From Micromonospora coriariae (GTDB lineage: Bacteria; Actinomycetota; Actinomycetes; Mycobacteriales; Micromonosporaceae): 64,000 nt of DNA. Of this stretch, positions 6,582 through 22,166 are shown in pieces. The position numbers and the translations under genes are program-made. How positions within the stretch are numbered: position 1 is the stretch's first letter; the number at the start of each line of letters is the position of its first letter. A model generated the notes under the pieces. It was not told where the DNA came from. It saw only the letters and a list, made by a program, of their open reading frames with translations, and ran no database searches. The stretch covers positions 3,658,001-3,722,000 of the forward strand of contig NZ_LT607412.1 of the NCBI RefSeq assembly GCF_900091455.1. The letters run 5' to 3'.

Positions 6582-8747
6582 GTGGCGGTTCACTCAGCGT
6601 CGGAAAGCGTGCTCGCCGGGCTGGACCCGGAGCAGCGCTCCGCGGTGACCGCACCCGCCGGTCCGGTCTGCATCCTGGCCGGTGCCGGCACCGGCAAGAC
6701 CCGCGCGATCACCTCCCGGATCGCCCACCGGGCGCTCTCGGGTGAAATCTCCCCACGGCACGTGCTCGCGGTCACCTTCACCGCCCGGGCCGCCGCCGAG
6801 ATGCGGAGTCGACTCACCGTCCTCGGGGTGGGTGGTGTGCAGGCGCGGACCTTCCACGCCGCCGCACTGCGCCAGGTGCGTTACTTCGCCCCCCGGCTGC
6901 TGGCCGGCCGGGCCATGCCCGAACTGCTGGACAGCAAGGTGCGGCTGGTCACCCTGGCCGCGGCCCGCGTCGGCCTGCGGACCGACCGGGCCGCCGCACG
7001 GGACCTGGCCGGCGAGATCGAGTGGGCCAAGTCGTCGCTGGTCGAGCCGGGGGAGTACGTGGTCTCGGCGGCCCGGGCACTGCGCGACACGCCGCACGAG
7101 CCGGCGAAGGTGGCCGAGGTGTTCACCGCGTACGAGCAGCTCAAGCGCTCGAACGGCGTGATCGACTTCGAGGACATGCTGCGCGCCGCGGTGTGGGGCA
7201 TCGAGGAGCACCCGGATGTCGGCGAGCAGGTGCGCGGCCAGTACCGGCACTTCGTGGTGGACGAGTACCAGGACGTCAACCCGCTCCAGCAGCGGTTGCT
7301 GGACGCCTGGCTGGGCGGCCGGAACGACCTGACCGTGGTCGGCGACGCCAGCCAGACGATCTACTCGTTCACCGGGGCGACCTCGGCGTACCTGGTCGAC
7401 TTCCCGCGCCGGCACCGCAACGCCACGGTGGTCCGGCTGGTTCGGGACTACCGCTCCACACCCCAGGTGGTCGGGTTGGCCAACGCGGTGATCTCCCAGG
7501 CCCGGGGTGCCGAGGCGCGGCTGCGACTGGAGTTGAGCGGGCAGCGCCCGGCCGGCCCCGAGCCGGACCTGCGGATCTTCACCGACGAGCCGGCCGAGGC
7601 GAACGCGGTCGCCGCCCGCTGCCGCTCCCTGATCGACGCGGGCACACCGGCCAAGGAGATCGCCGTGCTGTTCCGGGTCAACGCGCAGTCCGAGGCGTAC
7701 GAGAAGGCGCTCACCGAGGCCGCGGTGCCGTACGTGGTGCAGGGCGCGGAGCGCTTCTTCGAGCGGACCGAGGTGCGCCAGGCGATGGTCGCGCTGCGCG
7801 CCGCCACCCGGTCGATCCCGGGCGAGACCCCGTTGCCGACCGCCGTCGTCGAGGCCCTCACCGCGGTCGGTTGGGCCCCGGACGTGCCCCCGGCCGGCGG
7901 CGCGGCCCGCGAGCGGTGGGAGGCGCTGGCCGCGCTGGTCCAGCTCGCCGAGGAGTACGCGGCCACCCCGGAGGTGGTGCCGATCGGCGAGGCGGCGGCG
8001 GTCGAGCGCCCGGTCACCCTGGCCGACTTCACCGAGGAGTTGGCCCGTCGGGCCGCCCAGCAGCACGTGCCGACCGTGGACGGGGTGACCCTGGCCTCGC
8101 TGCACTCGGCGAAGGGGCTGGAGTGGGACGCCGTCTTCCTGGTCGGCCTCGCCGAGGGCACCCTGCCCACCACGTACGCCAAGACCGTCGAGCAGGTCGA
8201 GGAGGAGCGCCGGCTGCTCTACGTCGGGATCACCCGGGCCCGGCAGTGGCTCTGGCTGTCGTACGCCGCCGCGCGCTCGCCGGGTGGACGGGCCCGGCGG
8301 CCGTCGCGGTTCCTGCCCCAGCTGGACCGCTCCGGCGGGGCCGAGCGGGCCACCGGTGGCGCCGGTCCGGCCCGCCGCCCCGAGCGGCGCCGGACCCAGA
8401 TCGTGTCCTGCCGGATCTGTGGTGCCACCCTGCTCGCCGGCCCGGACCGCAAACTGGGCCGTTGCCCCACCTGCCCGTCCGACATCGACGATGAGCTGCA
8501 CGAACGGCTGCGCGAGTGGCGGCAGCGGGTGGCCGGGGCGCAGAAGGTCCCCGCGTACGTGGTCTTCACCGACGCCACGCTGGTCGCGCTTGCCGAGCGG
8601 CGGCCCGGCCGGCCCGAGGAGTTGATCGCGATCGCCGGCATCGGCCCCCGCAAGCTGGGCCTCTACGGCGAGTCGGTGCTGGCGCTGGTGGGGGGCGCGG
8701 GAGTGGACGACGTCTGCCCGGAGAAAACTTTCGAAATCTCGTCGTAA
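6582..8747 (+). CDS. uvrD2: ATP-dependent DNA helicase UvrD2
   Basis: The 721-residue superfamily 1A helicase has Walker A AGAGTGKT (33-40), motif Ia AVTFTARAAAEM, the Walker B-type motif VVDEYQD (around 225-231), motif III GDASQTIYSFTGA, motif IV RDYRST, motif V TLASLHSAKGLEWDAVF and motif VI YVGITRAR. After the helicase core there is a tetracysteine knuckle (CRIC and CPTC, about 609-628) and then an HRDC domain (about 645-710, ending GIGPRKLGLYGESVL). This helicase-zinc-HRDC layout is the hallmark of actinobacterial UvrD2, a DNA-dependent ATPase and 3'-5' helicase essential in mycobacteria. It starts at GTG 6582, divergent from mycoredoxin. Its last codons overlap the promoter region of the whiB7 leader. 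Confidence 0.95.
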   Translation: MAVHSASESVLAGLDPEQRSAVTAPAGPVCILAGAGTGKTRAITSRIAHRALSGEISPRHVLAVTFTARAAAEMRSRLTVLGVGGVQARTFHAAALRQVRYFAPRLLAGRAMPELLDSKVRLVTLAAARVGLRTDRAAARDLAGEIEWAKSSLVEPGEYVVSAARALRDTPHEPAKVAEVFTAYEQLKRSNGVIDFEDMLRAAVWGIEEHPDVGEQVRGQYRHFVVDEYQDVNPLQQRLLDAWLGGRNDLTVVGDASQTIYSFTGATSAYLVDFPRRHRNATVVRLVRDYRSTPQVVGLANAVISQARGAEARLRLELSGQRPAGPEPDLRIFTDEPAEANAVAARCRSLIDAGTPAKEIAVLFRVNAQSEAYEKALTEAAVPYVVQGAERFFERTEVRQAMVALRAATRSIPGETPLPTAVVEALTAVGWAPDVPPAGGAARERWEALAALVQLAEEYAATPEVVPIGEAAAVERPVTLADFTEELARRAAQQHVPTVDGVTLASLHSAKGLEWDAVFLVGLAEGTLPTTYAKTVEQVEEERRLLYVGITRARQWLWLSYAAARSPGGRARRPSRFLPQLDRSGGAERATGGAGPARRPERRRTQIVSCRICGATLLAGPDRKLGRCPTCPSDIDDELHERLREWRQRVAGAQKVPAYVVFTDATLVALAERRPGRPEELIAIAGIGPRKLGLYGESVLALVGGAGVDDVCPEKTFEISS

Positions 8748-8753
8748 ATTCGT

Positions 8754-8783
8754 TTGCCCTCGCCCCGGCGCGAGGAATAGCCT
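8754..8783 (+). promoter_or_regulatory. Candidate whiB7 promoter
   Basis: TTGCCC (8754-8759) and TAGCCT (8778-8783) are 18 bases apart. An AT-rich stretch (GTAAATTCG) lies just upstream of the -35, which is the arrangement described for WhiB7-activated promoters. It begins a few bases after the uvrD2 stop and would give a leader of about 450 bases before whiB7. Confidence 0.5.
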
Positions 8784-8870
8784 CAGGACACACCACGCGA
8801 GCGGCGCCATTCCGGCTGCTCACGGGGTTGGTCCGGTCGATATACGAGGAACGTGAGGGAGGTGGCACCC

Positions 8871-9119
8871 GTGAAGATCTTCACCTATGAGCGTCTGGCG
8901 GCGATGCCAGCTGTCCACGCTCCGTTGTCGGCTGTCCGGGTGGCCCTCGTGGCCGCACGACCGTCGGTTCCGCAGGTGCACCAGGTTCAGGCCGAGCTGA
9001 ACCTGACTGTCGCACCCATCGGAGTCGAGGGGACCAGTGGCTTCACGGGCATGGGCATCCAGGTCGCCAAGAAGCGCACGGATGTCCGCGGCGTTCCACC
9101 TCGAGGTAGACCGGTCTGA
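8871..9119 (+). CDS. whiB7 leader ORF (upstream ORF)
   Basis: An 82-codon open frame starts at GTG 8871 with a strong GGGAGGTGG ribosome site just before it and ends at TGA 9117-9119. The predicted product starts MKIFTYERLAAM and ends VPPRGRPV; I recognise no domain in it. It lies in the long leader of whiB7, where translated upstream ORFs are known in mycobacteria and streptomycetes. Its stop codon sits inside a hairpin that forms part of the antiterminator (9099-9145), so a ribosome completing the ORF would disturb that structure. It is therefore more likely to act in regulation through its translation than through its peptide. An independent peptide function cannot be excluded. Confidence 0.7.
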   Translation: MKIFTYERLAAMPAVHAPLSAVRVALVAARPSVPQVHQVQAELNLTVAPIGVEGTSGFTGMGIQVAKKRTDVRGVPPRGRPV

Positions 9120-9186
9120 CCATCAGACACCGGCTCACCTCGAGGCCGCGGAACCCGCTTACCGGGATCCGCGGCCTCAGTTTTTT
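9097..9186 (+). promoter_or_regulatory. whiB7 attenuator: antiterminator and intrinsic terminator
   Basis: The terminator is GAGGCCGCGGA (9142-9152) paired with TCCGCGGCCTC (9168-9178), with an inner CCCG/CGGG stem, followed by T6 at 9181-9186. The competing stem pairs CCTCGAGGT (9099-9107) with ACCTCGAGG (9137-9145) and encloses the hairpin CCGGTCTGA (9111-9119) / TCAGA-CA-CCGG (9123-9133). The two structures share bases 9142-9145 and cannot coexist. The leader ORF stop (9117-9119) lies in the enclosed hairpin. Confidence 0.8.
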
Positions 9187-9249
9187 GCCCCGCCGAAGTA
9201 CGTCGGAATGCGATCCACGAGATCGAAGTGAGAGAGAGGTGACCGGGCG

Positions 9250-9676: not shown

Positions 9677-9856
9677 ATGCTGCACGTACCGACTGGAGCC
9701 TTCGAGATGCAACTACTCCACGAAGCGTTGTCCCGGGCTCGAATGCGCCGGCCTCAGGCCGGTCGTACCACCACGAGCACTGAGGCAACCCGATCCGCCC
9801 GTACCGTCGCCATGAACAGCCGTAACCAGTCGGCACGCGACCTGGGCGTTCTCTAG
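9677..9856 (+). CDS. Small hypothetical protein downstream of whiB7
   Basis: A 59-residue basic protein begins MLHVPTGAFEMQLLHEALSR and continues with several arginine- and threonine-rich stretches; there are no cysteines or membrane segments. ATG 9677 follows a GAGAGAGAAG purine tract with suitable spacing. The gene starts 61 bases after whiB7 and ends just before the long palindromic terminator, so it probably shares the whiB7 transcript. The helix QLLHEALSRARMRR could bind nucleic acid or simply be amphipathic. I do not recognise a family, though similar short basic proteins occur next to whiB-type genes. A start at the internal ATG (MQLLHEA) is the alternative. Confidence 0.6.
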   Translation: MLHVPTGAFEMQLLHEALSRARMRRPQAGRTTTSTEATRSARTVAMNSRNQSARDLGVL

Positions 9857-21865: not shown

Positions 21866-21939
21866 CGCGGGGTGGAGCAGCTCGGTAGCTCGCTGGGCTC
21901 ATAACCCAGAGGTCGCAGGTTCAAATCCTGTCCCCGCTA
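21866..21939 (+). tRNA. tRNA-fMet (initiator, anticodon CAT), copy 1
   Basis: The sequence folds into a complete cloverleaf of 74 bases with anticodon CAT in loop CTCATAA. The initiator hallmarks are present: C1 does not pair with base 72, and the anticodon stem ends in three G:C pairs (CTGGG/CCCAG). No CCA is encoded. The T-loop is GGTTCAAATCC. Confidence 0.95.
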
Positions 21940-22092: not shown

Positions 22093-22166
22093 CGCGGGGT
22101 GGAGCAGCTCGGTAGCTCGCTGGGCTCATAACCCAGAGGTCGCAGGTTCAAATCCTGTCCCCGCTA
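22093..22166 (+). tRNA. tRNA-fMet (initiator, anticodon CAT), copy 2
   Basis: Identical base for base to the copy at 21866-21939, including the five flanking bases GTCGA on its 5' side. It has the same unpaired position 1-72 and G:C-rich anticodon stem. The copies are 227 bases apart, start to start. Confidence 0.95.

Follow-up and report, generated by a model that had tools for sequence, protein, structure and literature searches.

Attenuation of whiB7/wblC transcription mediated by an upstream open reading frame (uORF) has been published for actinobacteria, as an earlier note on the DNA studied here had stated and as four reports bear out (PMC10727445, PMC9618640, PMC11550727, PMC4128351). 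In two of them, stalled translation of the uORF is described as promoting an antiterminator (PMC9618640, PMC11550727), and in another the uORF, the terminator and attenuated transcription are described as conserved in two mycobacteria (PMC4128351). A 2025 paper describes the stalling of ribosomes on the whiB7 uORF as still untested (PMC12121999), and the present comparison bears on that question. Two other groups of leaders resemble the one described below. In the ilvB1 attenuator of M. tuberculosis and other amino-acid attenuators, the antiterminator is covered by a ribosome that has reached the end of the uORF and freed by an upstream stall; these systems, unlike our locus, carry regulatory codons for one amino-acid group. 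The antibiotic-responsive ARE-ABCF leaders (the tiaA, are5sc, vmlR and msrD kinds) also combine a uORF with a terminator and an antiterminator, but they have very short uORFs, start-codon stalling and different genes. Our literature search, which covered few subscription papers, found no prior description of a Micromonospora whiB7 leader.

The window analyzed here is a stretch of 64,000 nucleotides from Micromonospora coriariae, whose genome is a single contig of 6.93 Mb. The whiB7 gene in this window is the best among six Wbl-type matches in the genome, and its product is 100% identical to the protein of Micromonospora sp. U21, the nearest named relative found. Between an upstream uvrD-like gene and whiB7 lie, in this order, a promoter, a uORF, a terminator and a small hairpin (Table 1). 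The locus shares its uORF, Rho-independent terminator, downstream gene and promoter type, and likewise an antiterminator built from overlapping uORF and terminator sequences, with the whiB7/wblC attenuators described for Streptomyces and mycobacteria (PMC10727445, PMC9618640, PMC11550727, PMC4128351, PMC7157823). It differs from them in the sequence and length of its uORF, which lacks the alanine richness of the mycobacterial ones. Judged from its sequence, the locus holds hallmarks of this attenuator: a WhiB7/WblC gene, a uORF led by a Shine-Dalgarno sequence and an intrinsic terminator between the two. Together with the modeled folds, these features indicate that the leader very probably attenuates transcription under control of the ribosome, in the manner known for whiB7/wblC, with an antiterminator composed of two helices.

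Table 1. Features of the whiB7 locus of M. coriariae, numbered from the first base of the window
Feature	Position	Strand	Details
uvrD-like helicase gene	6582-8747		upstream neighbour of whiB7
WblC/WhiB7-type promoter	8745-8783	+	TAAATT, TTGCCC (8754-8759), TAGCCT (8778-8783), spacer 18
Shine-Dalgarno sequence of uORF, GGAGG	8858-8862	+	8 nt upstream of start codon
uORF, 82 codons	8871-9119	+	GTG start (8871), TGA stop (9117-9119), ends ...GVPPRGRPV
P1b 5' arm, UCCGCGG	9085-9091	+	in uORF codons 72-74; fold of 9080-9155
P1a 5' arm, CCTCGAGGT (RNA CCUCGAGGU)	9099-9107	+	fold, covariation
P2 nested hairpin	9111-9133	+	strands 9111-9119/9123-9133; uORF stop 9117-9119 paired inside
P1a 3' arm, ACCTCGAGG (RNA ACCUCGAGG)	9137-9145	+	9142-9145 common to terminator
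P1b 3' arm, CCGCGGA	9146-9152	+	equals terminator left arm; fold of 9080-9155
Intrinsic terminator hairpin, GAGGCCGCGGA-A-CCCG / CGGG-A-TCCGCGGCCTC	9142-9178	+	then AG, then U tract
Terminator U tract (T6)	9181-9186	+	sequence
Small hairpin, CGATC-CACGA-GATCG	9211-9225	+	between terminator and whiB7
whiB7, 121 aa	9250-9615	+	Pfam Whib, E 1.1e-13

The promoter overlaps the stop codon of the uvrD-like gene. A regular expression for its motif, composed after viewing the M. coriariae site and the GAAAWY rule published for the WblC-type promoter (PMC7157823), matched 190/236 leaders and 0/236 shuffled leaders; by its motif, the site would be a WblC-type autoregulated promoter. The small hairpin, searched as CGATC-N3-9-GATCG, was present in 109/249 leaders, 96 of them of the type whose uORF ends in PPRG, and in the family it is usually placed 24 nt upstream of the aligned whiB7 start.

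Every coordinate in the earlier note proved correct to the base, including the 82-codon leader ORF, the terminator with its T6 tract, the 9-bp alternative stem (P1a) that shares four bases with the left arm of the terminator, and the enclosed hairpin holding the stop codon, which the fold reproduced. The note had called this attenuator complete, which is incorrect: its kind was rightly recognized, but a second arm, P1b, had been overlooked. The 9-bp stem contests only four terminator bases, and it takes P1b to engage the left arm itself. In the fold, UCCGCGG(C) at 9085-9092 pairs with (G)CCGCGGA at 9145-9152, beyond a 7-nt bulge from P1a, so that an antiterminator is predicted, from sequence and modeling, to form between the end of the uORF and the terminator left arm. 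Comparison with relatives supplies a missing structural piece of the switch, not a new type of system. The pattern CCTCGAGG-N22-34-CCTCGAGG has a single site in the 6.93-Mb genome, reported on both strands because the pattern is palindromic, and neither this pattern nor a covariance-model search detected a second copy of the leader element in the genome, the second model match being antisense at the same place. When compared with Rfam (Rfam 15), the leader had no match at the gathering score, and three chance-level matches were returned (E 0.37-0.87).

Compensatory changes in homologous leaders, whose absence the earlier note had named as grounds for rejecting its reading, were found in both the antiterminator and the terminator. 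The alignment of family-type leaders took in 109 of 139 distinct segments, excluding 26 near-copies and four segments (L068, L093, L118, L153) taken to be unrelated or spurious matches to the motif. Related sequences may exceed shuffles without any structure, and for this reason controls with the partners slid by 1-3 columns were included. The antiterminator, P1b included, was 89.3% paired in the 109 leaders, against 28-46% when slid, and double-sided changes occurred in 11/25 pairs, compared with 4.7 in shuffles (0/500 as high) and 5-9 in slid controls. For the terminator, 98.9% pairing stood against 31-53% when slid, with double-sided changes in 5/15 pairs, compared with 0.4 in shuffles and 0-3 when slid. 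Covariation extends to the stop codon, whose middle base changes together with the base it pairs with (G-C 67, A-U 13, G-U 3, unpaired 21, gap 5). When the RNA preceding the terminator was folded for each leader, P1a was formed in 108, and a helix enclosed the stop codon in all 109; the nested hairpin, which the earlier note had singled out for comparison, is therefore no peculiarity of M. coriariae. In the same folds at least 3 of the 7 nt of P1b were paired in 107/109 leaders and at least 5 in 75. The inner four P1b pairs were kept in 103-107 of the 109 leaders and the outer three in 72-95. Since the terminator arm is nearly invariant within the family, P1b has almost no covariation of its own there, with double changes at 1/7 pairs, in one sequence.

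Comparison was extended beyond the family. The whiB7 search was positive in 151/151 genomes of the genus, 146/150 of the family and 209/246 of the class, and 259 leaders were gathered from the searched genomes and named contigs, with five other Wbl loci set aside. A terminator was found in 249 of the 259, and a uORF as well in 238; 225 distinct leaders were used for clade pairing, lengths and distances, and 237 for contiguous complementarity. In every clade group, with the labels of some genomes inferred, partly from the motif itself, the mean fraction of the terminator arm that pairs with the end of the uORF was higher than in codon shuffles: 0.83 against 0.49 in 133 PPRG leaders, 0.72 against 0.54 in 22 leaders of the ..PPV type, 0.75 against 0.51 in 14 mycobacterial, 0.80 against 0.51 in 8 Pseudonocardiales-like, 0.92 against 0.43 in 5 Streptomyces-like, 0.77 against 0.50 in 3 Streptosporangiales-like and 0.68 against 0.48 in 40 leaders from other clades. 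For single leaders the excess was often modest, lying at or above the level reached by 5% of shuffles or fewer in 57/133 PPRG and 0/14 mycobacterial leaders. At least 6 contiguous complementary nucleotides occurred in 194/237 leaders, compared with 736/2370 codon shuffles (31%). Outside the PPR type, the complementary segment is read in all three frames (38, 19 and 14 leaders), for example as G-TCC-GTG in mycobacteria and G-TC|CGC|GG in M. coriariae, which argues for RNA pairing and against a common peptide. A covariance model derived from the 109 aligned leaders was searched against 98 of 102 non-training loci (L241-L244 were left out) and recovered the sense leader in 74/98 at E <= 0.01 and in 53 at <= 1e-6, with rough E-values and a score that comes partly from shared terminator sequence. 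Of the remaining matches at E <= 0.01, one lay elsewhere (L064, 1515-1585) and all others were on the antisense strand of these leaders. As a separate observation from the whiB7 search, the best match in G477, a family member with a 9.1-Mb genome in one contig, was at 2.4e-10 and to other Wbl proteins, and its congener G443 has whiB7 at 1.5e-62; whiB7 may have been lost in G477, or its sequence may be absent from the data searched.

Folding of 9080-9155, with the RNA extending only to 9155, gave a minimum free energy of -41.2 kcal/mol and formed P2, P1a and P1b; by energy score, P1a with P2 reached -29.3, and P1a and P1b together with P2 reached -41.2. At equilibrium, the terminator takes the four shared bases (9142-9145) with a probability of 0.70-0.96. 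The check proposed in the earlier note, folding with bases 9108-9125 blocked, was run and revealed no switch, as the terminator formed with and without the block. Full-length equilibrium folding likewise gave the terminator at ~0.95-0.99 in every ribosome state analyzed (absent, upstream, on the stop), and equilibrium folding was rejected as a proof of switching. The terminator wins at equilibrium, and refolding of the antiterminator into it has an estimated path barrier of only 3 kcal/mol, so any switching would have to be kinetic. We then scanned ribosome positions co-transcriptionally, with RNA polymerase taken to hide the last ~14 bases. When the RNA reached 9168, P1b dominated (0.76-0.99) if the ribosome was stalled at codons 58-67; with the ribosome at codon 70 or later and RNA out to 9172, the terminator is formed (0.97-0.99). 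Many stalls upstream of codons 58-67 lead to other pairings, and several of them permit the terminator with RNA out to 9172. The modeled scan is therefore mixed: its direction is consistent with a switch, and the energetics are no proof of one.

The mechanism outlined in the earlier note, termination upon completion of the uORF and transcription of whiB7 upon earlier stalling, agrees in kind with the anatomy and covariation of the leader and with what has been published for whiB7/wblC; equilibrium folding did not reproduce it, and it is not new, because attenuation by the uORF is already in print. A ribosome at the stop codon would cover P1a and P2, leaving the terminator left arm free, and RNA polymerase would stop. 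A ribosome held before about codon 67-70, or an absent one, would allow P1a and P1b to form from the last codons during synthesis of the terminator, and whiB7 would be transcribed; WhiB7 would then probably activate its own promoter. Selection on the uORF would act mainly on in-frame reading to a stop at a fixed place, and the peptide would matter little.

The pattern of constraint in the uORF can be compared with this expectation. An intact uORF ending in PPRG[RK]P was present in 78/78 Micromonospora loci, GGAGG preceded 74/77 of the Micromonospora uORFs, and the PPRG[RK]P ending occurred in 136/259 leaders of all kinds. Among 27 distinct 82-codon Micromonospora uORFs, pN/pS over codons 2-70 was 0.87 (0.46-1.62 when codons were bootstrapped). 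The variable positions in these 69 codons number 19 at the first, 15 at the second and 20 at the third base, and in codons 71-82, 3/36 bases vary; the first 60 codons of whiB7 gave 0.12 in the same group. A test of the codon frame by pN/pS was uninformative (true frame 0.82, +1 0.77, +2 3.95), so translation is argued from the intact ORFs, the Shine-Dalgarno sequence and the stop position. The distance from the uORF stop to the terminator core has a median of 24 nt (IQR 23-26) in 225 leaders, and again of 24 nt in the 92 leaders that lack the PPR ending (IQR 22-26), its range being limited because the uORF picker, which takes the best Shine-Dalgarno sequence, accepts stops from -75 nt to +4 nt of the terminator start. 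Drifting amino acids with a kept frame and stop position are the pattern expected of a ribosome-transit sensor, and the low peptide constraint with a steady stop distance favours, on sequence grounds, the transit of the ribosome being read and not the peptide.

An arrest-peptide attenuator of the ErmCL kind, in which the nascent uORF peptide stalls the ribosome and its sequence is the sensor, would draw on the PPR motif 8-6 codons upstream of the stop in the family, on a PQVHQVQ-QAEL-like stretch that recurs in several genera and on a milder constraint in codons 26-50. The pN/pS of that segment is 0.47 with an interval (0.13-1.24) that includes 1, codons 2-25 gave 1.00, the PPR codons sit within the nearly invariant RNA element, and uORF endings are clade-specific, which together make this explanation improbable. 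The uORFs also range over 37-184 codons in the 225 leaders, the extreme lengths being uncertain because start codons are the picker's choice; the length of the M. coriariae uORF, also raised for comparison in the earlier note, is thus not peculiar. In one leader (L223) the uORF is expanded to 124 codons by in-frame tandem PLPAAQTAVA-like units, with the RNA end unchanged.

We consider less probable still a codon-specific attenuator sensing an amino acid, such as the alanine sensor reported for mycobacteria. Amino-acid starvation induces whiB7/wblC according to a review (PMC11550727), and uncharged tRNA would also stall translation of the M. coriariae uORF; alanine, however, accounts for 11/82 codons here, without a single-codon run, and for a mean of 14.0% in 133 PPRG-type uORFs versus 31.6% in 13 of the mycobacterial type. 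No run or excess of regulatory codons was found in the M. coriariae uORF. Mycobacterial-type uORFs (e.g., L061-L065) reach 23-45% alanine, about twice the level of other clades, consistent with the reported role of alanine starvation. Least probable of all is a terminator that merely caps whiB7 constitutively, with the uORF and the alternative stem as by-products: the terminator does always win at equilibrium, but covarying antiterminator pairs would be pointless for a bare terminator, the stop codon distance is fixed, and the uORF is intact in all 78 Micromonospora loci despite amino-acid drift.

If the leader is read as a ribosome-controlled attenuator, a switch known to respond to antibiotics is also present in Micromonospora and other Micromonosporaceae, an extension backed by quantitative comparisons. 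The analysis also names the second antiterminator helix, P1b, as a mutable target, and offers a testable contrast between alanine-rich mycobacterial uORFs and those of Micromonosporaceae, which are not. A broader proposal, evenly balanced in our judgement, is that whiB7 leaders represent a single RNA element, deeply conserved in actinobacteria, whose uORF serves as a peptide-blind gauge of ribosome transit. What is kept would then be only the frame, the place of the stop (~24 nt before the terminator, within a covarying hairpin), the last dozen codons as structural RNA and a P1b able to occupy the left arm; drift of the middle codons, for example toward alanine in mycobacteria and not in Micromonosporaceae, would set the spectrum of the sensor.

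Two further observations were made in the window. An ORF of 59 aa (MLHVPTGAFEMQLLHEALSRARM...) lies just 3' of whiB7 (9677-9856, + strand); it has no Pfam match, and three relatives (L008, L016 and L035) carry it in almost the same sequence. Two tRNA genes, at 21866-21939 and 22093-22166 (+ strand), lie 227 bases apart and have equal Rfam scores.
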